Shown piece after piece: positions 1,551-49,745 of a stretch of 64,000 nt of DNA (position 1 is the first letter of the stretch; every line of letters begins with the position of its first letter). The notes under the pieces were generated by a model, which was not told where the DNA came from, ran no database searches, and saw nothing but the letters and a program-made list of their open reading frames with translations. A program made the translations under genes and the position numbers. This stretch comes from Diplonema papillatum (lineage: Eukaryota; Euglenozoa; Diplonemea; Diplonemida; Diplonemidae), in NCBI GenBank assembly GCA_030068145.1, contig JAPJBO010000286.1, forward strand, positions 62,001 to 126,000, in the 5' to 3' direction.

Positions 1551-1568
1551 AGTGCCTGTATTTTTTTT

Positions 1569-1859
1569 TACATAAGCGCCAGCTTGAAAGGAAATGCTCG
1601 ACGATGCTGCCCGACAAAGAACAGAAGGGATCCAAAGTGCTGTAACTACCGAACCACGTGTTGAACGGACGTGAGGTCATGCGGGTCTACCACTACACGA
1701 CAAATCACACAAACACAACAGGTCAAAAGTCCTGAGTGAGAAAACAACACACGGTGGTGTAAGCGAAGAACAAATCAGATTGTGTTTGTATTGTATTTGC
1801 CCCTTACCTCTATATTTCCCCCCTTCCATTCGGAGTCGAAGCAGCTACGTCGAGTATTT
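1569..1859 (+). repeat. family C solo repeat (tyrosine-recombinase-type terminal repeat)
   Basis: Full-length family C copy of about 290 bp, from TACATAAGCGCCAGCTTGAA to GTCGAGTATTT. Both ends parallel family A (TGTATAAGCACCTGC...CGAGTATTT). Near 1760 it has GTAAGCGAAGAACAAA, which matches the family A core GTAAGCGTTCAACAAA except for three central bases. The final CGAGTATTTT runs directly into the start of a family A copy. Confidence 0.8.
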
Positions 1860-2074
1860 TGTATAAACACCTGCTTTGTAGGAAATGCTTGAGGAGACTG
1901 CCACTTGCGATAGACAAAGGAGGTAAATGTGCTGCAGCCCACACGAAACACAGATAAATCTGGGTTCTGTGGCGGGCGTAAGCGTTCAACAAAAAAGACC
2001 CACTTTGTAGTTGTATTGTTTTCGCCCCCTCTAGCCTCCTTCGAAATGAGCACGAGGCAGTCCCTCGAGTATTT
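1860..2074 (+). repeat. family A solo repeat (A-core-B)
   Basis: About 215 bp from TGTATAAACACCTGCTTTG to CTCGAGTATTT, with the core GTAAGCGTTCAACAAA near 1979. It is the solo form of the terminal repeat of the retrotransposon at 23033-27631: the part up to the core matches A, the part after it matches B. It lies head to tail with the family C copy before it. Confidence 0.85.
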
Positions 2075-3769: not shown

Positions 3770-3984
3770 TGTATAAGCACCTGCTTTGTAGGAAATACTT
3801 GAGGAGGCTGCCAGCTGCAAAAGATCAAAGGAGGTAAATGTGCTGTAGCCCACACGAAACACAGGTGAATCTGGGTTTAGTGGCGGGCGTAGGCGTTCAA
3901 CAAAAAAGACCCATTTTGTAGTTGTATTGTTTCTCCCCCTCTAGCCTCCTTCGAAGTAAGCACAAGGCAGCCCCTCGAGTATTT
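3770..3984 (+). repeat. family A solo repeat close to the kinase splice acceptor
   Basis: Full A-core-B copy starting TGTATAAGCACCTGCTTTG and ending CCTCGAGTATTT. It belongs to the subgroup with GGCAGCCCC near the 3' end and GCAAAAGATCAAAGG in the A part, close to 42395-42609. The copy ends 79 bases before the kinase exon, so a CT-rich tail is all that separates it from the acceptor. Confidence 0.85.
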
Positions 3985-6606: not shown

Positions 6607-7019
6607 CCCCCCCCCTGCGGATGGCTTTGACTGCGTTTCCTAGTGGCCGGGCGACGGTGACTACTTTCCGCCCAAAAATGCGCAGCTGCGAGGGTCGGCA
6701 TTCGCAGACGACCGCGAAAACCTGTAGCCGTGATTCGGGCGCTGCAGTTGTTGCAACTGTCAACCTTCTCACCAAATTTGCGCCAGAGGACGAGTGCACT
6801 ACACCCTCTCCCCGAGATTCTGATTGAACGAAGATTTTCCCCCTATATCGGCAGAGTTTGCATGCTCGAAGCCCTGAGTTACTCACGCGTTTCCTCTAGA
6901 CTGGCTTCTGGCTTAGAGGCGTTCAGCCACAATTCATCCAGTGGTAGCATCGCGGCACTGTCCGATCGAACAAACGTAGATACCAGGGACTGGAACCGGG
7001 ATTCCGCTTGTACTACCCC
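6607..7019. other. no recognised feature
   Basis: I see no conserved domain, RNA gene or repeat shared with the rest of the window. Short open frames exist on both strands but none has clear coding character. Confidence 0.4.
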
Positions 7020-7130
7020 GTATTGCTGTCGGAATGCGCTGGCCCGATGGGCTCTCTCTCCATCCGCAGGGTGTAAACAGCCTGTCTTGCGACTTTGCGA
7101 ACACGGCTCGGGAACAGCCCTCGGGCAACC
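7020..7130 (-). repeat. diverged, inverted copy of the 28S-derived repeat
   Basis: Read on the minus strand, this stretch follows the 28S segment at 7465-7513 with about 70% identity (GAGCCGTGTT, GTCGCAAGACAGG, ACACCCTGCGGATGG). It then continues with GAGAGAGAGCCCATCG and GGCCAGCGC. That continuation is not rRNA, but it is shared with the 3' flank of the copy at 32328-32532, so both are members of one composite repeat. Confidence 0.6.
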
Positions 7131-7302: not shown

Positions 7303-7374
7303 GAAGCCGGAGGTGACAGAAAAATTACCACAGGGATAACTGGCTTGTGGCAGCCAAGCGTTCATAGCGACGTT

Positions 7375-7406
<32 letters not shown>

Positions 7407-7454
7407 ACCTAGACAAGCAGAATTGTCTAAGGGTTGGATTGTTCACCCACGAAC

Positions 7455-7498
<44 letters not shown>

Positions 7499-9503: not shown

Positions 9504-9780
9504 TGTATACGCCTGCTTTGTAGAAAATACTTTGAGGAGACTGCCGGCTGCGAAATCTCAAAGAGGGTCGAGTGTGGTACTCGTCGGCACGCCGATGACT
9601 CCCCACTATCGCAACGGTATTCCAATCTCGAAGGAGGGAACTGTGCTGTAGTCCACAAAACCCATTGGTAGGTAAATCTGGGTGAAGTGGTGCGAAGCGC
9701 TTAACATAAAATACCGCTTTGTCGTTGTATTGTTTCTCCCCCTCTAGCGAGGTAAGCACAAGGCAGCCCCTCGAGTACTT
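9504..9780 (+). repeat. family A solo repeat, long-A variant
   Basis: Diverged A-core-B copy, TGTATACGCCTGCTTTG to CTCGAGTACTT. It has an extra segment of about 70 bases in the A part containing GTGTGGTACTCGTCGGCACG and CCGATGACTCCCCACTATCG. The copy at 19273-19544 has the same extra segment. Confidence 0.75.
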
Positions 9781-10332
9781 CCTCGGTGCTCGATCAACGT
9801 TTCAAATAAGAAATCGCTTGGGATATGAATCGTGTCAACCCGTTGGTCGTCCGTTGATTCATCGTCAGTAGTGAAGGGGCTGAGCCGCTCCACTCCCGCC
9901 TCCTGGAGCTAACATCAATTGCCTGGTGCTGGCTTTACGGTTCATCCGTTCCCAGCAAAGAGGAAGGGATGCGCGCAAACGATGGGAGCAAGACTCGACT
10001 CGACTGGCGCAGATTGTCGCCAGACGATTAGTTGCATCTGAGCCTCAAAAGCTGCGCTCTGTCTTTCAATTCTAATTTCCGGTATCGAAACGCCTGTCAA
10101 CCGTTCACGGTCTATCATCCGAAGAGCATTGGCCGGCTCTGGGAGGGGGGTGGGCAAGATGGAACCAGCCCCAGGAACTCTGCAGTTAAAAAGCGGGTGT
10201 CGCACCCGCTTTTCGGGTACATGTTCACACGCGTTTTCGTGGTGGCACACACGCGGGTGTGTTTCGGGCCACACTCTCTTGACTTCAGCTTCCGAGGGCG
10301 AACTGCACCGTGCAGGGCGGCCTTTTATCTTT
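9781..10332. other. no recognised gene or repeat
   Basis: Nothing shared with the rest of the window except AAGCGGGTGTCGCACCCGCTT at about 10188-10208, a short perfect inverted repeat. Confidence 0.35.
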
Positions 10333-10620
10333 TACATAAGCGCCAGCTTGAAAGGAAATGCTCGACGATGCTGCCCGACAAAGAACAGAAGGGATCCCAA
10401 GTGCTGTATCTACCGAACCACGTGTTGAACGGACGTGAGGTCATGCGGGTTTACCCCTACACGACAAATCACACAAACACAACAGGTCAAAAGTCGTGAG
10501 TGAGAAAACAACACACGGTGGTGTAAGCGAAGAACAAATCAGATTGTGTTTGTATTGTATTTGCCCCTTATCTTATTTCCTCCCTTCCATTCGGAGTCGA
10601 AGCAGCTACGTCGAGTATTT
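10333..10620 (+). repeat. family C solo repeat
   Basis: Full-length copy, TACATAAGCGCCAGCTTGAA to CGTCGAGTATTT, very close to 1569-1859, with the variant core GTAAGCGAAGAACAAA at about 10525. A family J fragment (CACCTGAAACCACGTTCAGG) follows immediately. Confidence 0.85.
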
Positions 10621-11921: not shown

Positions 11922-12135
11922 TACTAAGCACCTGCGTTGAAGGTAGTTACTCGAGGAGGCCGCCAGTTGCAAAATCGCGAAGGAGCGAATTGCTTTTAGC
12001 CACACGAAACACAGGCAAGTCTGGGTTAGTGCTGGGCGTGAGCGTTCAACGAAAAGTACCCATTTTGTCGTCAGCATTTTTTCTCCCCCTCTAGCCTCCG
12101 TCGAAATAAACACAGGGCAGCGCCCCTCGAGTATT
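11922..12135 (+). repeat. family A solo repeat, diverged
   Basis: Begins in an ACT run (CTACTAAGCACCTGCGTTGA) and ends CCTCGAGTATTT. The core is changed to GTGAGCGTTCAACGAA. A 26-base T run separates it from the next copy. Confidence 0.75.
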
Positions 12136-12154
12136 TTTTTTTTTTTTTTTTTTT

Positions 12155-12366
12155 TGAACAAGCACCTGCTTTGTAAGAAATGCTTGGGGAGACTGCCACT
12201 TGCGATAGATCAAAGGAGGTAAATGTGCTGTAGCCCACACGAAACACAGGCATAGCTGGGTTTAGTGGCGGGCGTAAGCGTTCAACATAAAAGACCACTT
12301 TGTAGTTGTATTGTTTCTCCCCCTCTAGCCTCCTTCGAAGTAAGCACAAGGCAGCCCTCGAGTATT
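12155..12366 (+). repeat. family A solo repeat, tandem to the previous copy
   Basis: TGAACAAGCACCTGCTTTG to CCTCGAGTATTT, with core GTAAGCGTTCAACATA. It lies head to tail with 11922-12135. Confidence 0.85.
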
Positions 12367-13146
12367 TTGGTGCCGGGTTTTGAGATTTGAAGGGAGTGTG
12401 CCTGTATGGTGGCATGGCGTGACACGGCACTCCACTTGTCTTCATTCCTTCTGTTCAGCAAAATTAAGAAGCATTGCATTCCTGTCGTAACTGTGGCAGC
12501 AGCTCTCGAATCTAAGTCTCATGCAGCTGCTGGATAAGGTAGCGACTACAGCAGGGATGCAGATTTGGTGTCGGCGCGGAGCCTGAAAGCATGACTGCGC
12601 CACGATTAACGCCAACCGGCCAGGCATCGAAACTGTCTCATCTGAACCAGGGGGGACAAGGAAGGATGGTTTTCCTCGTAACACCGACTGATTGCAAACT
12701 CGAAAGAGAAGGCCGACCGCGTGCTTGGGAGGAAATTGATCGAACGATCATGTTCACTCACATACAGGCTAGCTTCTCCCGGCACGTACAAACACGACAG
12801 CAGCCAGAGCTCAGAATTGTGACTGCAGTCACAGTTCGCTACGAGAAACGATATCTCTGCCATAGAGAAACAAAGGAGAAAATGAGAGGCGGTGTGAATT
12901 TGTCTCAACATGGAACTATGATTTCTGTCATCCCCGGCCGCCTTCGCAACTCAGCAAACTGTACTTTTTGAGCTCCGCAATCGGCCTCGTAGCCGAGCGG
13001 ACTGGATGTGTTTTCGTGCCGTCCACACTGGGAACTCACTCTTTATCGGAACCCAAGCAATGCCTCCGACCGTGGTGAAGAAGCAAAAACCGAGCCAGCG
13101 AGCTTTTTGTGTGCCAAACAAAAAAGGGTTTTGCTCTCTCTTTTAT
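12367..13146. other. no recognised gene or repeat
   Basis: Open frames up to 126 codons exist on the plus strand and overlap frames on the minus strand. None shows a known domain. Confidence 0.35.
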
Positions 13147-13280: not shown

Positions 13281-13482
13281 TCGCCTTGTAGGAAATGCTT
13301 GAGGAGACTGCCAGTTGCGGTAGACCAAAGGAGGTAAATGTGCTGTAGCCCACACGAAACATACGTAAATCTGGGTTTAGTGGCGGGCGTAAGCGTTCAA
13401 CAAAAAAAGACCCACTTTGTAGTTGTATTGTTTTCTCCCCTTCGCCTCCTTCGAAATGAGCACAAGGCAGTCCCTCGAGTAT
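13281..13482 (+). repeat. family A solo repeat, 5' truncated
   Basis: Starts at CCTTGTAGGAAATGCTTGAG directly after the family J end, so about 15 bases of the A end are missing. The core GTAAGCGTTCAACAAA is intact and the copy ends CCTCGAGTAT. Confidence 0.8.
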
Positions 13483-19272: not shown

Positions 19273-19544
19273 TGTATAAGCACCTGCTTTGTAGGAAATA
19301 TTTGAGGAGGCTGCCAGTTGCGAAAGATCAAAGGGGGTGTGGTACTCATCGGCATGCCGATGACTCCCCACTGTCGCAACAACATTCCAAGATCAAAGGA
19401 GGTAAATGTGCTACGAAACACAGGTACATCTGGGTTTAGTGACGGGCGTAAGCGTGCAACAAAAAAGACCCACTTTGTAGTTGTCATGTTTTCTCCCCGT
19501 CGAGCATCCTTCGAAGTAAGCACAAGGCAGCCCCTCGAGTATTT
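19273..19544 (+). repeat. family A solo repeat, long-A variant
   Basis: TGTATAAGCACCTGCTTTG to CCTCGAGTATTT. It shares the extra A-part segment of 9504-9780; here that segment includes the perfect palindrome ATCGGCATGCCGAT. The core is GTAAGCGTGCAACAAA. Confidence 0.8.
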
Positions 19545-23032: not shown

Positions 23033-23167
23033 TGTATAAGCACCTGCTTTGTAGGAAATGCTTGAGGAGACTGCCAGTTGCGATAGATCAAAGGAGGTAA
23101 ATGTGCTGTAGCCCACACGAAACACAGGTAACCCTGGGTTTAGTGGCGGGCGTAAGCGTTCAACAAA
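23033..23167 (+). repeat. A1 half of the split direct repeat
   Basis: TGTATAAGCACCTGCTTTG to the core GCGTAAGCGTTCAACAAA. Identical in layout to the A part of solo family A copies. The B part does not follow; the gag ATG does, one base after the last A-run position counted here. Confidence 0.9.
23150..23167 (+). other. putative recombination core, left
   Basis: GCGTAAGCGTTCAACAAA. It is the point where A sequence ends and element-internal sequence begins, and it is repeated at 27397-27414 and 27614-27631. By analogy with known tyrosine-recombinase elements, I infer it is the crossover site. Confidence 0.65.
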
Positions 23168-23168
23168 A

Positions 23169-24662
23169 ATGCCGAAGCAACTCGACAGGTCGGGCGCGGT
23201 GAGTTGGGTGAAGAGGGTGGTCGGGACTGATGTCCCGTCCCTTTTTTCCTTCACCGCGAACAACCGCCGTCTCTCGACGGTGTTGAAGGTCGCCCGCGAG
23301 GTCGAGGGCACCGCGGAAGCCGGGCTGAGGCGCCTCCTGGGCGCCTTGGGCTACACCGACGAGGAGGCCCCCCCGGAGGGCGTCGCCCAGTGGGTACTGG
23401 CGTGGCTCGCAGTCGCGTCGGCGCCTTCCGCCACCGAGGGCGAGTTCGCAGACCTGTTGCGCTCGTCCCCGAAGGCCGCGCCCCCGCCACAGACGCCGGG
23501 GCACATGCCGCTCCCCGCCACCCCCACCGACTCTACCGCGGCCCTATCTCCGCCGGCGGCGCGCCGCGTTTCGTTCGCTGAGAGCGACGACCCGGGTGAT
23601 GGCGACCTCAGGGACTGCGGCTCCACCGAGGGCAGCCGGGGCGGCGACTCAGACCGCATGGACCGCCTGCAGCGGCAGGTCGAGCGCCTCACCGAATTGG
23701 TGATGGCGGCTCTCCCGACGCGCGACTCGCCGCGGCCTGAGCCTGTCCCCGCGGCGACGACTCACCCCGCACGCGACGCGCCTCCTGGTTGCCCCGCGCC
23801 TCCGCCGGTAGCGATGCCCGTTGGGTCCTTCCCCGCCGCCGCGGCCACGCCGCTGGACTCCTGTCCCTGCCCAGCGCCCCGTCAGGGGCCGCTCGCAGGC
23901 CAGCTCCCGCCACCTCCGCCTCTTATCGACGTCTCTCGGTTACCCCGGGCTGTCCTGCTGCCGGGCTCCTCCTGCGGCCTCTTGCGGGCCATCGAGGACG
24001 CCGCGCCGCCAGTGTACCGACACCATCCGTACGCTGAGCTCTACCAGCCCCGCGCCGAGCCCCCCCAGCCCTACGCTGGGTCTTCACAACCCCTTCCGGA
24101 TTTTCCGGAGGGCCCGCCTTCGCTGGGGGAGGGCGGGTCGGTCCAAGGCTCCCCCACGCTCCTCTCCCCCGGGCCAGAGCTCCTCGACCCCCAGCTCTGG
24201 GTCGGCCTCAGCCCCATCGAGAAGTCGCTGGCCCTGGTGCACATCCGCGACTTTTTCGCCGACATCCTCGATGCCATCCCGAGCGTCGCCAACGACGCCC
24301 AACATCTCACCAACCACGTCACCACCATCATGCGACTGATGGACGACACCACCGACCCAGACGCCCTCGTCCAGCTGGGAAGGGACACCATCCACCGGAT
24401 GATGGTCCTGAAGACGGCTCTGAAAGCCGGGTGGTCTCTTGCAGGCAGCCTCCAGCACCGGCATCAGCACGAGGCCGGGTTTCCTCCGTTTCTACGGAGC
24501 GTCTTCCAGGCTCTACAGAAAGCCGAGGAGCAGCCCGCCTCGAAGCCGCCCAGGAAGCGCAGCCCGAGGCCCCGCACCCGACACTCGGGCGAAGCTCTTC
24601 CCCCCGACGCTCCCCAGGCCCCTCAGCGGACGAACGCAACCAGGAGCAAGGCCAAGCAGTAG
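23169..24662 (+). CDS. gag-like protein of the retrotransposon
   Basis: 497 codons, ATG immediately after the left core. Probably the RNA-binding or particle-forming protein, by position only. Visible features: a basic N-terminal helix-rich segment (to about residue 110), a heptad-like stretch MDRLQRQVERLTELVM near residue 160, a long Pro/Ala-rich middle, a folded-looking segment around residues 340-430 (IEKSLALVHIRDFFADILDA), and a basic C-terminus (PPRKRSPRPRTRHSG). No CCHC knuckle is present. The last 230 bases overlap the recombinase frame, so the two may be linked by frameshifting or re-initiation. Confidence 0.8.
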   Translation: MPKQLDRSGAVSWVKRVVGTDVPSLFSFTANNRRLSTVLKVAREVEGTAEAGLRRLLGALGYTDEEAPPEGVAQWVLAWLAVASAPSATEGEFADLLRSSPKAAPPPQTPGHMPLPATPTDSTAALSPPAARRVSFAESDDPGDGDLRDCGSTEGSRGGDSDRMDRLQRQVERLTELVMAALPTRDSPRPEPVPAATTHPARDAPPGCPAPPPVAMPVGSFPAAAATPLDSCPCPAPRQGPLAGQLPPPPPLIDVSRLPRAVLLPGSSCGLLRAIEDAAPPVYRHHPYAELYQPRAEPPQPYAGSSQPLPDFPEGPPSLGEGGSVQGSPTLLSPGPELLDPQLWVGLSPIEKSLALVHIRDFFADILDAIPSVANDAQHLTNHVTTIMRLMDDTTDPDALVQLGRDTIHRMMVLKTALKAGWSLAGSLQHRHQHEAGFPPFLRSVFQALQKAEEQPASKPPRKRSPRPRTRHSGEALPPDAPQAPQRTNATRSKAKQ

Positions 24663-25603
24663 ACGCCGTGAACCGCTTCCCTCCTCCGGTCTCGGGGCGA
24701 TGCGGACGTCCCCTCCTCTCGGAGCCCCCTCTCTCACCCGGCGAACGGAACCGTCTTGTCCGGACTGCGAACGCGTACGTGGCGGATGCACTGGCGCTGT
24801 CCACACGACGCGGGATCCACTCCGTGTACCGGCGCTTTCTGGAGTTCCGACGTCACTGGGATGCAGAGGCAGATTCGCAGCTCGATGTCCCGACGGCGCT
24901 GGTCTTGTTCGTGACCCGTTTGCTCTCTCGTGGAGACATCTGCGCGGCCTCGGCAGTACAGTACGTCGTCAACGTACAGTCGGCCGAGAAGCGGTTGGGG
25001 CGGCCTGTCGACAGCCAGCTCGTCAGGGACTTTGTCAGGTCTCTGAAACGGGCCGGCGCGATGAAGCCGTCGAAGCAGGCTGTACCGGTGACGAAGGACG
25101 AGCTGCATCTTGCCGTTGCCCTGGAAGCGGACCCCAGGGTGCGTGTTGCGCTGGCTTTGGCCTGGCAGGGTGCCGCCCGCGTGGACGACGTGCTGACGAG
25201 AAAGGCAGAGCACGTCACCGAAAGTGCTGGTTTCTGGGCGGTGAACTGGGTGGGCTCGAAGTCGGATCCTTTCCGTCTCGGCCAGGTGACAGGAGTGATT
25301 CTTCCTCCAGCCCAGGACCAGGAGCTCCGGACGCTGTTGTCGCAAACACCTCCGGGACGCCTCCTGTTCCCGGACCTCCCTTTCCGACGAGTTGTGACCG
25401 CGCTGAAGCGCGCGAACATTTCACTCTCCGGCCATTCTCTCCGGCGGGGCGCCCTGTTTCATCTCCTGAGAAGCGGGATCGACCTGAAGGTGATCCAAAG
25501 TGTGTCGCGCCATACGACGCTGAGTGCGCTAATGCGATACCTTCCGGAGGCCGAGGTTCCGCTCGTCCGGAACACCGCGAGGGCGTCGGCGTCCCTTCTC
25601 TAA
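24431..25603 (+). CDS. tyrosine recombinase
   Basis: An open frame of 390 codons; the true start is uncertain because the first 77 codons overlap gag. From about residue 95 it shows an N-terminal core-binding region (LSTRRGIHSVYRRFLEFRRH) and then the catalytic domain. The catalytic set is complete: Arg250 in GAARVDDVL, a Lys in WVGSKSDPF, His335 and Arg338 in GHSLRRGA, His361 in SRHTT and Tyr370 in LMRYLPE. This enzyme cuts and rejoins DNA through a 3'-phosphotyrosine link, and in such elements it inserts a circular DNA copy. It lies between gag and RT. The closing stop overlaps the upstream extension of the RT frame. Confidence 0.9.
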   Translation: MVSCRQPPAPASARGRVSSVSTERLPGSTESRGAARLEAAQEAQPEAPHPTLGRSSSPRRSPGPSADERNQEQGQAVDAVNRFPPPVSGRCGRPLLSEPPLSPGERNRLVRTANAYVADALALSTRRGIHSVYRRFLEFRRHWDAEADSQLDVPTALVLFVTRLLSRGDICAASAVQYVVNVQSAEKRLGRPVDSQLVRDFVRSLKRAGAMKPSKQAVPVTKDELHLAVALEADPRVRVALALAWQGAARVDDVLTRKAEHVTESAGFWAVNWVGSKSDPFRLGQVTGVILPPAQDQELRTLLSQTPPGRLLFPDLPFRRVVTALKRANISLSGHSLRRGALFHLLRSGIDLKVIQSVSRHTTLSALMRYLPEAEVPLVRNTARASASLL

Positions 25604-27402
25604 CCCTTCGTCTTGAACCCCCTTTCCCGTTTAAGCCGCCCAAGAAGTTCCCCGACCCGTTGGCTACGTTCTACCAGGGGCCGGGAGAGGGTCCCGAAGA
25701 AGACTTGCCCCCCTCGATGTTCACTCCCTTTGTTGGTGTTGCTTACGGGGGTGAACTCCTCATCAACAACCTCACGGCCGTCCCTACGCAACGCAGAATC
25801 GGCGAGGCTCTCGCGCCCATCTCGTCATCGTTCATGAACCTTGAGAGGTTGACGGCGCTGGACAGCCGGGGGCTGCTGCGCGGTGTGCTGGACGTGGTCC
25901 GTTCGTGGGAATCCTTCCGGTCCGCCCTGCTCCCGGGGGCGGAGGAAGCGCTGATGGCATCGGCGATCACACGAACGACGTCGAGGCGCATGCTACGCCA
26001 CTTCCCGGATCTGGTGAGATATGGCGTGGCAGAGGTCGCATCGGGCGGGTTGAGGGTCGTCCTCCCCGCCTTCACTGTCGACAAGAAGAGCGGTGGGCAG
26101 AGGTTCGTGTGTGACGGTCGCAAGCTCAACGCGATCATGGCGCGCCCGCCTCCAATGCTGCTCCCTTCGGTTCACGAGGTGATCGACCGCGTGTTGGCCT
26201 CATCGGTGGTGTTTCTCGCGGACGCCCGGAGCTATTTTTATCAGTTCCGGCTCGACGCAGACATCCGACCGTATTTTGGCATGCACCTGGCAGGGCCGCG
26301 GGGCCGTTTTGTACAGGCACAACTCGCCGCAATGTGCATGGGGTGGAGCTGGGCTCCGGCGATAGCTCAGAGGGCCTCCCGGGTGCTCCTACCGGAGGCT
26401 GACGGTCTACCCTGGGTGGACAACTTTGTCGTCGTGGGAAGCTCGTTGCGGGAGGCAACTTCGCGGTTCGACTCTTTCGTGCAACGCTGCAGGGACGTTA
26501 ACTGCGAGCTCAACGAAGACGACGAGCAGTTTGGAGCCCCCCTCAGGGAGTTCGACCTCCTAGGACTCCATTTCGAACTCTCCCGGTTCGACCGCCCCGC
26601 CCGGTATAGGATGGCAGAATCGTGGGTGTCGAAATTGCTTGGTTCCCCCGAGCTCGCCATGGTTCGGCTTGGAGGAGTATCCCCTCGCCAGTTCTACCGG
26701 GTGTTCGGATCTTTGGTCTGGTTCGCGTACACGACACGTTTCCGACTGGCCTACGCCCGATGTTCCTTGTCGTTCCTGCAGAGGCTGGCCTCGACTCTGG
26801 CATCGGATCCAGCTGCCTGGGATGTGACGAGGGCTGTGCCGCCCTCGACGGTGCGTGAGGTCGAGCATCTTGTTTCCCTTGTGGAAGAGAATCGCTGGGT
26901 CAGTCGGTCAGAATCCTTTCCCTCATCGGTCACTCTCTGGACAGACGCCTCGTCCAAATGGTGGGCTGCGGTCCTCGAAGGGGAATCTGAGCGCGTGTCA
27001 CAGGGCCCCTTTGTGGAGTTGAGTCACACCCACATCTTTTTGAAGGAACTCTTTGCAGTCCTTCGGGGCATCGAGATGACCGCCAGTTTCCATTCGAACG
27101 TCCGCGTAAGGCTCATGGTAGACAACCTCCCGGCGGTCCATTGTCTCAACAAGGGACACTCAAAGAATTTTGCGGCCAATGTCCTTTTGACGAGGATATT
27201 CGACGCCGCACGGGCTGCCGGCCTTGTCATCAGTGCCGAGTGGGTTCCGACCGATGCGCAAAGGGCCGACCCCTACACCCGCGGGGTGCTGGCCCTGGTG
27301 AGCGACACGCCAGAGAGTGTCTGGTCGCCTCATGCAGAGGATCTAGCTCCGCCCTCAGATTTGGTGTGCCACTGCGTGGTCCCTGGGGGTCCTGATGCGT
27401 AA
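25604..27402 (+). CDS. reverse transcriptase - RNase H
   Basis: The frame is open well upstream, but before about 25600 it only shadows the recombinase. The first in-frame ATG is at 25717, so translation may need a frameshift from the recombinase frame. RT motifs: FVCDGRKLNA, motif A FLADARSYFYQF (Asp at 26221), motif C WVDNFVVVG at 26413-26439, where the usual second Asp of YxDD is Asn. RNase H motifs: WTDASSKWWAAV, LKELFAVLRGIE, MVDNLPAVHCLN and WVPTDAQRADPYTRG supply D, E, D and D. The protein copies RNA into DNA and removes the template. The stop TAA is inside the right core. No methylase domain follows. Confidence 0.88.
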
Positions 27403-27496
27403 GCGTTCAACAAAAAAGACCCACTTTGTAGTTGTATTGTTTTCTCCCCCTCTAGCCTCCTTCGAAATGAGCACAAGGCAGTCCCTCGAGTATTTT
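27397..27496 (+). repeat. B1 half of the split direct repeat
   Basis: Begins with the core GCGTAAGCGTTCAACAAA, continues AAAGACCCACTTTGTAGTTG and ends CTCGAGTATTT, exactly the second part of a solo family A repeat. Confidence 0.9.
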
Positions 27497-27631
27497 TGTA
27501 TAAGCACCTGCTTTGTAGGAAATGCTTGAGGAGACTGCCAGTTGCGATAGATCAAAGGAGGTAAATGTGCTGTAGCCCACACGAAACACAGGTAACCCTG
27601 GGTTTAGTGGCGGGCGTAAGCGTTCAACAAA
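27497..27631 (+). repeat. A2 half of the split direct repeat
   Basis: TGTATAAGCACCTGC to the core, same as A1 including the GTAACCCTGGG variant. After the core the flank is GATTAAAGTCCGC, not B sequence. Confidence 0.9.
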
Positions 27632-28454: not shown

Positions 28455-28670
28455 TGTATAAGCACCTGCTTTGTAGGAAATGCTTGAGGAGACTGCCAGT
28501 TGCGATAGATCAAAGGAGGTATGTGTGCTGTAGCCCACACGAAACACAGGTAAATCTGGGTTTAGTGGCGGGCGTAAACGTTCAACAAAAAAGACCCACT
28601 TTGTAGTTGTATTGTTTTCTCCCCCTCTAGCCTCCTTCGAAATGAGCACAAGGCAGTCCCTCGAGTATTT
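28455..28670 (+). repeat. family A solo repeat
   Basis: TGTATAAGCACCTGCTTTG to CCTCGAGTATTT. The core reads GTAAACGTTCAACAAA. It is near the consensus of the group with GAAATGAGCACAAGGCAG. Confidence 0.85.
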
Positions 28671-32327: not shown

Positions 32328-32532
32328 GAAGCCGGTGGTGACAGAAAAATTACGACAGGGATAACTGGCTTGTGGCAGCCAAGCGTTCATAGCGACGTTG
32401 CTTTTTGCTCCTTCGATGTCGGCTCTTCCTAACCTAGACATGCAGAATTGTCTGAGGGTTGGATTGTTCTAACAGGGAACGTGAGGTGGGTTTAGACCGT
32501 CGTGTGACAGGTTCGCTTTACCCTACTGATGG
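32328..32532 (+). rRNA. 28S rRNA fragment (domain V), second dispersed copy
   Basis: The same segment as 7303-7513 with a few more changes (TTACGACAGGG, a deletion in the GGATTGTTC-TAACAGGG part, GACCGTCGTGTGACAGG). It starts and ends at the same positions. After TACTGATGG it runs into GAGAGAGAGCCCATCGAGCC, which is non-rRNA and shared with the inverted copy at 7020-7130. Confidence 0.85.
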
Positions 32533-32986: not shown

Positions 32987-33214
32987 CCCGTACCTACCCC
33001 GTGCATAAGATGGATGAAAAATTCGGGTTTTGGCGGTATCCATCTTAATCAAGGGGGGTATCCATCTTAAACACGGGGCACTGTAGACTACAGTGTAGTC
33101 GCCTTATACGGGAGTACCTCACCCCCGTGTTTAAGATGAATTGGCATTCTCACCCGTTATCCATCTTAATCGAGGGGGTTTGGCTATCCATCTTATGCAC
33201 GGGGGGGGGTAGGT
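32987..33214. mobile_element. hairpin-type short element (MITE-like), word TATCCATCTTA
   Basis: The ends TACCTACCCCGTGCATAAG and CTTATGCACGGGGGGGGGTA match in inverse. The outer TACCTACCCC...CGTG is the same as in the element at 31938. Inside are four direct and two inverse copies of TATCCATCTTAA. The right end lies against the family A half repeat at 33214. Confidence 0.7.
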
Positions 33215-33309
33215 AAGCGTTCAACAAAAATAGCCGCGTTGTAGATGTACTGTTTTCTCCCCCCTCCAGCCTCCGTCGAAATAAGCACAAGGCAGTCCTT
33301 CGAGTGTTT
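33214..33309 (+). repeat. isolated B half of family A, 120 bp upstream of the CAP start
   Basis: Starts TAAGCGTTCAACAAAAATAG, inside the core, and ends CTTCGAGTGTTT. No A part precedes it; the hairpin element does. Since that element may duplicate TA, the TA of the core could be its target. Confidence 0.8.
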
Positions 33310-41919: not shown

Positions 41920-42389
41920 CGAATAAGCACCTGCTTTGTAGGAAATACTCGAGGAGGCCGCCAGTCGCAAAATCTTAAAGATCTTCCACGCCGGTGACGA
42001 GAGCCCCAGGAATGCTACATCAGTCCAAATCTCAAAGGAGGAACGTGCTGCGGTCCCGTACGAATCACAGGTAAATCTGGGTTCAGTGCCGGGACGTGAT
42101 CGTTCACCAAAACAGACCAACACGGTGCACTAGTCATTGGAAATACAGCGTCATCTTACTAGTGAAAATGGCTTGTTAGTGCCACTAGTAAGAATGACTA
42201 GTAGCATTAGTTTTGAACTTGCTACAGCAGCAACTAAATTTTAGCAACGTTTAGTGTGTGACTAGTAAGATCACTAGTAGATGACTATTGAATGGCATGA
42301 CTAGCGTGCTGTGAACTTTTGTAGACCTCCCCCCCCCCACATCCTTCTAGCCCGTCGAAATAAGCACCGGGCGGCCCCTCCGAGTATTT
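41920..42389 (+). repeat. family A solo repeat interrupted by a hairpin element
   Basis: CGAATAAGCACCTGCTTTGT to CCGAGTATTT, diverged, with an extra 55-base segment in the A part. The core (GTGATCGTTCACCAAA) is changed. The B part is split at about 42128 by the element listed next. A second copy follows head to tail. Confidence 0.8.
42128..42315. mobile_element. hairpin-type short element, word ACTAGT
   Basis: The ends GCACTAGTCATTGG and CATGACTAGCGTGC are inverted, and ACTAGT or a variant occurs eight times within 190 bases in both senses. It interrupts a family A copy, so the insertion limits are clear on both sides. Confidence 0.7.
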
Positions 42390-42394
42390 TCTTT

Positions 42395-42609
42395 TGTATA
42401 AGCACCTGCTTTGTAGGAAATACTTGAGGAGGCTGCCAGCTGCAAAAGATCAAAGGAGGTAAATGTGCTGTAGCCCACACGAAACACAGGTGAATCTGGG
42501 TTTAGTGGCGGGCGTAAGCGTTCAACAGAAAAGACCCATTTTGTAGTTGTATTGTTTCTCCCCCTCTAGCCTCCTTCGAAGTAAGCACAAGGCAGCCCCT
42601 CGAGTATTT
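42395..42609 (+). repeat. family A solo repeat, tandem to the previous copy
   Basis: TGTATAAGCACCTGCTTTG to CCTCGAGTATTT, nearly identical to 3770-3984. Confidence 0.88.
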
Positions 42610-44914: not shown

Positions 44915-45340
44915 CACACGGCAAGAAGCGGAGATTGTACTGCCCCTGCCAAACGTGCGCACGAACAACGTCGCGGAGTATGAAGGACTCCTGGCTAGCT
45001 TAGAGCTCCTTCAGCAAGTAAGAGTCGAGCGGGAAGTGCGCTGCGTGGTCCGCGGTGTCTCCGCCCTCGCAGTGGGCCAAGTGACACGACGAACAAGTTG
45101 CTCTGAGCAGCTAAGGCCGATGCTCACCCGCGTAAGTACCGCATAAGCGCCATCCAGCAGCGGTTCCAAGTGGCAGTCGAACACGTTCGGCGGGAGCGCA
45201 ACCGCGATGCGGACGCGCTCAGCAACGCGGCGATGGACGTAGTGCAGCGGAGCCGGCCACCCCGACAGGAGCAGATGCTGCTGCTGCGACAGTTGCAGAA
45301 GTCACTCCTTGGGAAGGCACTGAGCCTGATTGAGCTGTGA
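44915..45340 (+). pseudogene. broken RNase H domain (retroelement-type)
   Basis: Frame one gives VRTNNVAEYEGLLASLELLQ and then VVRGVSALAVGQV. After a one-base shift near 45130, another frame gives KYRISAIQQRFQVAVEHVRR, then ERNRDADALSNAAMD. The 'NN.AEYe.L..gLe' helix and 'HV.Re.N..AD.L.N.AmD' end are typical of the RNase H family found in plant-type and LTR retroelements. The catalytic Asp of the usual GDS motif is Val (GVSA), and the N-terminal strand with the first Asp is missing. It is therefore inactive. It is preceded by a CA run and lies between the two copies of the unidentified exon. Confidence 0.7.
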
Positions 45341-45965
45341 AACTCATACACGAAGGTGACGAAGCGGCCATGGCACTTCGGGTTCGACACGCCGACGACC
45401 ATACTTACGTCGCTTGGAGGGACCATTGTGCGGGGAGTATCGTGCAGATCACGAGAGCGGCCGAGGACGTTATCCTGGGTGTCAGGGAGCATGTACAAAG
45501 CGATCACTTTTCTGCAGAGGAGACACCGCTGTTCCCGCAGCACCTGGCATGGGCCGCTACTTTTCAGCCGGAGGAAACATACCCCGAAGGATGGTCGCAA
45601 CCCGGAGCCAGACGGGCGAGGTCGCAAAACGTCGACGAATACCGCAGGGAAGGAACTCGAAGGGAAGCCCCACGGAGCCCGGTTAGACCCCAGGAGAAGG
45701 AGGGCCCGGGCGGACGAGAAGTCAAGGAACTTGTGTGCGCGCGACGCAGCCGACAGTGCCCACGTCCAGAAGCCGAACGCTGCCGACCCCATGGACTAGA
45801 GCGGTGCAGAGAGACGGAGGAAGAAAGACCATGCTGCCTCAAGCACCACTCCGGCCCGCATGAAACTCCAGGCCCCCATCAGCAGCCCGGGGGAGCATCG
45901 GCAGAACCTAGAAGAAACCGCGCGTGGACGCACTCGCTAAGAGGGGGCGCCACGTTAAAATAGGT
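45341..45965 (+). other. open frames downstream of the RNase H fragment, unidentified
   Basis: A 208-codon frame and a second frame containing MVATRSQTGEVAKRRR overlap. 'TRSQTG' is often seen in retroelement polyproteins, but that alone is not evidence. The stretch may be further decayed element sequence. Confidence 0.25.
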
Positions 45966-46029
45966 TCTTAACACACACACGGCAGGAAAAAAAGATACGT
46001 CCACTTTGAGGGATTGAGGGGTTCCAGGG

Positions 46030-49531: not shown

Positions 49532-49745
49532 TGTATAAGCACCTGCTTTGTAGGAAATGCTTGAGGAGACTGCCAGTTGCGATAGACCGAGGAGGTAAAT
49601 GTGCTGTAGCCCACACGAAAACACAGGTAAATCTGGGTTTAGTGGCGGGCGTAAGCGTACAACAAATGACCCACTTTGTAGTTGTATTGTTTTCTCCCCC
49701 TCTAGCCTCCTTCGAAATGAGCACAAGGCAGTCCCTCGAGTATTT
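49532..49745 (+). repeat. family A solo repeat
   Basis: TGTATAAGCACCTGCTTTG to CCTCGAGTATTT; core GTAAGCGTACAACAAA. Near consensus. Confidence 0.88.

Follow-up and report, generated by a model that had tools for sequence, protein, structure and literature searches.

A VIPER-like tyrosine-recombinase retrotransposon of Diplonema papillatum and the possible origin of its short A-core-B copies

How do a long retrotransposon and many short repeats come to share the same ends and the same internal junction? The question is raised by a 64,000-nucleotide stretch of the 271 Mb Diplonema papillatum assembly (the window; G000:C286:62001-126000; C and L with a number denote contigs and loci). Window 23034-27631 holds an element that, judged by its predicted genes, is a tyrosine-recombinase (YR) retrotransposon, and short A-core-B copies of its repeat (solos) lie around it. 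A sequence-only reading of the window had proposed that circles enter resident solos by crossover at the core and that the reverse reaction leaves solos behind. Here we put the chance at about even that the short A-core-B elements arose as circles or short transcripts ahead of integration and were inserted by the YR of the element. The parts of the window element are:

23034..23151 (+), A1, left half of the split direct repeat (SDR), 118 bp, identical to A2 and preceded by a T-tract
23152..23167 (+), core 1 = GTAAGCGTTCAACAAA, exact match, the identity reaching about 20 bp
23169..24662 (+), open reading frame (ORF) 1, gag-like by position, 497 aa
24431..25603 (+), YR ORF, PF00589 at E 1.2e-8, the searched part starting at 24668
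25636..27402 (+), reverse transcriptase/RNase H-like (RT/RH) frame, open from 24439, PF00078 at E 1.6e-5, below the curated cut-off
27399..27414 (+), core 2, exact match
27415..27495 (+), B1, right half of the SDR, 81 bp, found by BLAST with B
27493..27497 (+), T5 in the B1-A2 junction GAGTA-TTTTT-GTATAAG, the presumed circle junction (185 exact 24-mers genome-wide)
27498..27615 (+), A2, 100% identical to A1, TT separating B1 from A2
27616..27631 (+), core 3, exact match, with unrelated DNA directly after it and no B2

The window copy reads A1-core-gag-YR-RT/RH-core-B1-A2-core, with the terminal B2 missing. All parts of the order A1-core-ORFs-core-B1-A2-core described by the sequence-only reading were located, and A1 was identical to A2. 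A1 and A2, with the core, form identical 118-bp direct repeats 4.46 kb apart, and in full copies B1 and B2 with the core form 97-bp repeats about 217 bp apart. With up to 3 mismatches allowed, the window contains 19 cores, where 0.53 would be expected. Since A and B have the core in common as their overlap, a full copy shows the junction of a solo within its own A2-core-B2. The earlier statement that every junction falls at the core thus follows in part from how A and B are defined.

ORF1 gave no Pfam match at E 0.1 and no CCHC motif by pattern search. The YR matched the XerC-like structure PDB 4a8e (E 1.6e-4) as well as Phage_integrase, and its motifs HSLRR...H...Y were recognised by eye. The TAA stop of the RT/RH frame sits within core 2, and the RT is 99% identical to DIPPA_33724 of D. 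papillatum across the aligned half of the query. RNase H was assigned in the window element by a motif, RVT_3 being found in 2 of 13 aligned sequences. A methyltransferase domain, a feature of DIRS and PAT elements, gave no Pfam match across the three frames scanned, and the protein searches returned no named VIPER protein, the organism-named matches being D. papillatum. The catalytic motif of reverse transcriptases usually contains DD. Motif C of the window RT, at about 26425, is WVDN; WVDNF is invariant in 13 of 13 aligned sequences, and WVDN is present in one copy from each of three subfamilies.

These subfamilies were defined by a YR protein search in which 127 of 1789 candidates were scored, so that the counts of full copies are lower bounds: 45 copies at 100% identity (subfamily 1), 63 near-full-length copies at 91% (subfamily 2), 12 at 71% (subfamily 3) and 7 others. 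Both ends were examined in 20 further copies, 10 each of subfamilies 1 and 2. The arrangement A1-core-ORFs-core-B1-A2-core-B2, here called the D form, was found in 15 of the 20 (L060 has altered last bases of B2); in two, the start of a second, incomplete ORF follows A2-core; B1-A2 is absent from one, and core 2 was not found at the expected place in two, one of which (C121) retains B-A and A-core-B nearby. The window copy is atypical in its missing B2. A1 equals A2 in 11 of 16 comparable copies, and B1 equals B2 in 12 of 14. The proposal that the repeat family A is the SDR of a YR retrotransposon was upheld. Two copies of subfamily 2 (L057, L063) have a chimeric A1, in which much of A is swapped for TTTAAAAGCTACAGTTTCTGTACTTTATT and other DNA and the last ~30 bp of A are kept. 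An allelic test with one 4-kb window query gave no second full-length match.

The order gag-like, YR, RT/RH was also recognised by motifs in one copy of subfamily 2 and one of subfamily 3. The gene order and ends of subfamily 3 are known from one copy, L052, which has the same layout with a different core, GTAAGCGAAGAACAAA, and its own A and B; these make up the second family of short repeats in the window. In all three subfamilies the ORFs lie between cores, of which there are two sequence types. The core architecture recurs in a diverged subfamily with a different core, represented by one full copy and 1680 exact A-core-B junctions in the genome.

A second full form, A-core-ORFs-core-B (the S form), was recognised from the right ends of elements. 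We classified 65 of the 139 ORF-core-B places of the genome, those on contigs up to C307. Of these, 49 run into A2 (B2 was not checked in each), 15 end in B plus foreign flank, and one is broken in B. Two of the 15 S-form endings, both on C104, have the same flank and are probably one event. The left end of these 15 was seen for C210 alone; the first element of L051 is one more S form, and there both ends were read.

BLAST with A and B found 13 further copies in the window, 12 of them containing A. Eleven of the 12 span A to the end of B, some being old and two having a split A; of the other copies, one has an interrupted B and one is core and B alone. These copies (all by BLAST, those of subfamily 2 type with subfamily comparison) and two solos of subfamily 3 are:

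1565..1860 (+), subfamily 3 solo with core GTAAGCGAAGAACAAA, 98.7% identity to A2-core-B2 of L052
1861..2074 (+), solo A-core-B
3771..3984 (+), solo A-core-B, subfamily 2 type
9505..9780 (+), old solo A-core-B, A in two hits
10326..10620 (+), subfamily 3 solo, 96.7% identity to L052
10991..11205 (+), solo A-core-B
11925..12136 (+), old solo A-core-B
12160..12367 (+), solo A-core-B, sharing one T-tract with its neighbour at 11925..12136
13283..13482 (+), solo A-core-B, A without its first 12 bp
19274..19544 (+), solo A-core-B with a longer A
28456..28670 (+), solo A-core-B
33213..33309 (+), core-B without A
41923..42121 (+), old A-core and start of B, the end of B lying at 42343-42389
42396..42609 (+), solo A-core-B, subfamily 2 type
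49533..49745 (+), solo A-core-B

Solos equal the A2-B2 region of full copies: L095 is identical to A2-core-B2 of subfamily 1, and the other solos differ from A2-core-B2 by up to several percent or more with age. Most match a single full subfamily in both A and B, the window solo at 12160 being one example of a mixed solo. A longer A, with ~50 extra bases, was seen in older solos (window 19274-19544, L082, L086, L093), and some older solos with the longer A contain the palindrome TCGGCATGCCGA.

Junctions were counted in the 271 Mb genome as exact matches on both strands, with reversed controls of 0, and mutated copies are missed by these counts. The core itself was found 6101 times (reversed control 0) and A-core 4568 times. 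The tabulation proposed by the sequence-only reading gave 2147 A-core-B, 203 A-core-ORF, 139 ORF-core-B and 185 B-A (B-TTTTT-A) junctions, and no exact ORF-core-ORF was found in the genome. The youngest type, with AACCC in A and counted by a longer exact pattern, has 203 A-core-B sites against at least 45 full copies with identical YR; by eye, about 13 of its first 100 A-core-B sites lie in full copies.

The solos, S forms and full copies examined have TTGTATAAG as their left end and GAGTATTT as their right end, and solos and full copies sit mostly inside genomic T-tracts. Target-site duplications (TSDs) were sought in 24 of 34 solos, those with both ends complete, including two units of the tandem array L092. 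The left T-run of these solos is 2 to 20 long and the right flank adds 0 to 4 T's; the smallest T counts, 2 left and 3 right, add up to the T5 of the B-A junction. No TSD was found in the 24 solos, the mean longest shared word being 3.96 against 3.92 (sd 0.20) in shuffled pairs. L140 and L102 are solos inside a host repeat of which empty copies exist. Each of the 40 matches listed spans the joined flanks; 10 of 12 fetched empty copies read CTTTC-T6-G, and the other two have T7 and TTTTAT. The filled sites read T7-element-T4. The 7 + 4 T's are the 6 of the empty site and the 5 of the B-A junction, and the insertion was therefore conservative. A joined-flank search of the fetched DNA gave, among the matches listed, mostly matches to self and to tandem units. 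The T count of the filled and empty sites fits the circle-integration model of DIRS elements, without a TSD, as outlined in passages of PMC3266345. With no TSD in 24 solos and conservative insertion at the empty site, the earlier view that the solos are not ordinary short interspersed elements (SINEs) gained support.

How, then, are the solos made? Dimers are rare and S forms are fewer than solos, and by this argument from ratios most young solos seem to have been inserted as solos. Circles with a closing B-TTTTT-A junction would carry the D, S and solo forms into a T-tract by YR crossover. A D circle would hold two B-A junctions, the closing one and the internal one, and exchange between core 1 and core 3, core 2 and core 3, A1 and A2, or B1 and B2 would resolve it into an S circle and a 215-bp A-core-B minicircle with one B-A junction each. 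Each such single-junction circle would be able to enter T-tracts. Exchange between core 1 and core 2 would instead give a dimer circle and an ORF-core circle; the latter would have no B-A junction for integration, which would explain why ORF-core-ORF was found 0 times. The S forms, the solos, the rare dimers and the zero ORF-core-ORF fit the resolution of D circles. An alternative source of short elements would be transcripts that start in A2, end in B2 and are copied in trans. Recombination at the core is kept from the sequence-only reading, and we infer that it is shifted from the chromosome to a stage before integration: the core would be a place of strand exchange during replication and not mainly a chromosomal excision site. 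The specific proposal that the full circle resolves before integration into the 215-bp minicircle and the unsplit S circle, both of which integrate at T-tracts, is a tentative one. If it is true, one retrotransposon routinely emits a SINE-like minicircle parasite, and the origin of SIRE, the short derivative of the retrotransposon VIPER, is explained too.

Several points weigh against a pre-integration origin. All the evidence is genomic, and neither a circle nor a short transcript was seen. The same solo would result if A1 and A2 recombined homologously in place, and the genome is reported haploid (in passages of PMC10161547), with no allelic pair to separate A1 x A2 recombination from insertion of a solo. 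The two solos behind the empty-site result share their host repeat and their T split and may go back to one duplicated event, and the TSD test covers solos only. Moreover, insertion at the B-A junction does not explain copies that stop at the core, as the window copy does. By exact match, 2218 of the 4568 A-core places are neither A-core-B nor A-core-ORF. The first 32 of these in list order were read individually: B is mutated in 15 and partial in 2, the sequence breaks off 9 to 19 bp past the core in 3, and in 12 it does so no more than 5 bp past the core; we call these half-solos (L076, L078, L081, L082, L090, L092, L135, L137, L146, L149, L151, L152). Since an exact core was required, breaks within the core are not visible, and the excess is seen at the core edge. 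The flanks of L081 are continuous in a neighbouring repeat unit, to within ~20 bp, and this half-solo looks inserted rather than deleted. One idea for the source of half-solos is a primer site for strong-stop DNA at the core. A tRNA primer or a ribozyme at the core was considered as well, and the scans of the window listed no tRNA, and rRNA families only. Behind the half-solo L082 lie reverse-complemented sequence of subfamily 3, a short piece of A' and the 5' end of small-subunit (SSU) rRNA (RF01960).

Alternatively, solos could be left over, as solo LTRs are, when A1-core and A2-core undergo ordinary homologous recombination or strand annealing. The 118-bp identical direct repeats with the core, 4.46 kb apart, would allow this, and the product would look exactly like the solos, with the T-tract ends inherited. 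On the other hand, B1 and B2 with the core should recombine far more readily, giving S forms, and S forms make up 15 of 65 ORF-core-B places, while solos of the youngest type outnumber full copies several-fold. We therefore regard such leftovers as a rather unlikely main source.

Short elements and deletion derivatives might also come mainly from reverse transcription, followed by the same integration. Transcripts would start in A2, or the RT would switch templates between cores or at micro-homology. Evidence for such joins came from 20 A-core-ORF copies without a matching right end that were chosen and read. Eight of them (L113, L116, L117, L123, L124, L128, L130, L131) have an internal deletion, in which the ORF 28 to 160 bp past core 1 is joined to core, B or A2, with L123 keeping ~7 bp of B; L142, L147 and L080 are further cases. 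L119 is joined at a shared CAAC to the end of the core and B, and the SSU rRNA piece joined to the A' piece in L082 is in keeping with the same process. In the remaining copies, foreign DNA follows ~15 to 17 bp past the core (L118, L120, L121, L127) or further on (L114, L115, L132), L122 has a local repeat, and L125, L126 and L129 continue past the stretch read. RT template switching would be a natural reading of these joins, though host DNA repair could make them too. Reverse transcription as the main source of the short elements seems to us unlikely.

The proposal of the sequence-only reading, in which the YR recombines cores in chromosomes, has in its favour that cores lie on both sides of the ORFs in all three subfamilies, in two sequence types, that S forms, dimers and solos are alike predicted by it, and that the breakpoints of half-solos cluster at the core edge. 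However, copying of A and B alone can keep core 1, core 2 and core 3 alike. A circle entering a resident solo would give A1 and B2 from the solo, and B1 and A2 from the circle. The A1 of subfamily 1 copies is of the element's own AACCC type in 9 of 10, against 203 of 2147 (9.5%) A-core-B sites (binomial P = 5.5e-9, assuming random choice among sites); the 9.5% is somewhat low, as the 203 came from a longer exact pattern, and at 20% the binomial gives 4e-6. Thus, the entry of circles into resident solos is not the general route. Two mosaics, on C116 (L059/L060) and C346 (L039/L040), have an odd pair at A2-B2, and not at A1-B2, with the A1 of C346 also unusual; they look as if an S-form unit was inserted beside an older solo.

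For excision in place, exchange among three cores would give a monomer (core 1 x core 3), an ORF-less dimer (core 1 x core 2) or an S form (core 2 x core 3). Dimers would be expected about as often as monomers, yet with 2147 A-core-B sites against 185 B-T5-A junctions they are far rarer, which argues against core-specific excision as the main source of solos. Of the first 100 B-T5-A places, 47 lie next to an exact ORF-core-B, which puts at least 47 in full copies; of the other 53, 8 fall in one array, and some (such as C48:183249, C121:177201 and C254:51840, beside YR genes) are full copies with a changed junction. Among 26 B-A loci fetched from these 53 and neighbouring places, 7 hold two or more successive units with no difference or a single one: L165 (behind a full copy), L166, L167, L168, L172, L183 and L187, the last B of L167 differing by 4. 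The remaining loci hold neighbouring solos that differ more, or are unscorable for two units (L171, L175, L177, L179, L181, L186). L165 (G000:C122:202400-205100) is a full copy of subfamily 2 followed by 10 tandem 216-bp units, 9 of them identical and one with a single change. Private mutations common to tandem units were considered as proof of minicircles and dropped, since dimers from full copies of the same lineage share them too. Chromosomal excision is possible for a minority of solos; as the general account, recombination of cores in chromosomes is in our view quite improbable.

Finally, we rejected as very improbable that solos are independent minus-strand SINEs, moved by a LINE (long interspersed element) and with the poly-A on the A side, for although the A-side T-run varies from 2 to 20 and sampled truncated copies lack B more often than A, there is no TSD, the T count is conserved at the empty site, full protein-coding copies have the same ends and T-tracts, and a tRNA gene scan of the window found none.

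By gene order and repeat layout the element appears VIPER-like, and its closest known relatives are VIPER, with SIRE, and TATE, all of kinetoplastids. In passages of PMC6681497, VIPER of Trypanosoma cruzi is A1...B1-A2-B2 and SIRE corresponds to A2-B2, and it is left open there whether SIRE is mobile with the help of VIPER or is what VIPER insertions left behind; according to a passage of PMC12278014, no TSD is made by VIPER or TATE. Like VIPER as described there, the Diplonema element has the order gag, YR, RT/RH between a 5' A1 and a 3' B1-A2-B2, and the A-core-B solos resemble SIRE in being the A2-B2 part; the solos tested show no TSD, and none is reported for VIPER. Unlike VIPER, the Diplonema element has a diplonemid host, and its A and B overlap in a core that is found on both sides of the ORFs as well. 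S forms, tandem arrays and half-solos are not described for VIPER in the passages of PMC6681497 and PMC12278014, and the Diplonema element has more than 2000 short copies by exact junction. TATE also has gag-like, YR and RT/RH genes with SDRs, in the same passages of these two papers. TATE is named for its association with telomeres, whereas the Diplonema element lies on many contigs, in T-tracts. In Ngaro and most PAT elements, the YR follows RT/RH, unlike the Diplonema element, in which the YR comes before RT/RH. Ngaro and PAT share with it SDRs in the order A1-B1-A2-B2 and a YR, and Ngaro has no methyltransferase domain (a passage of PMC4157794). In passages of PMC3266345, DIRS1-like elements are similar in that a circle recombines at a 3-bp junction motif, TTT in some, without a TSD; DIRS1 differs in having inverted terminal repeats and internal complementary regions, not SDRs.

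VIPER was called known only from kinetoplastids in the consulted part of a fungal survey (PMC3783388), and the Diplonema element suggests that VIPER-like elements exist outside this group. Titles and abstract openings gave no description of such an element in Diplonema. For the Diplonema genome, passages of PMC10161547 report 52% repeats, a commonest dispersed motif with ~6000 copies, and ORFs resembling TATE; DIRS, VIPER and tyrosine recombinase have 0 mentions in its main text. If our reading is right, it explains part of this published repeat-rich genome. With many near-identical full copies and thousands of short ones, an empty site, and the series of D, S, solo and tandem forms, the SIRE question becomes directly testable, and the testing ground is a free-living flagellate.

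Large-subunit (LSU) rRNA fragments (RF02543) occur in the window at 6886-7038 (-), 7335-7494 (+) and 32360-32513 (+), in line with the ~3600 scattered 28S rRNA pieces of the Diplonema genome given in a passage of PMC10161547. At L073, by eye, the B of a solo runs into the 3' end of 18S, which Rfam did not report. At L091 (C2:546022), the core is flanked by neither A nor B. The 1.06-kb stretch at window 44923-45980 has 39 other places at 96-98% identity, with 40 of 1385 candidates scored, and by these matches is an abundant young repeat.

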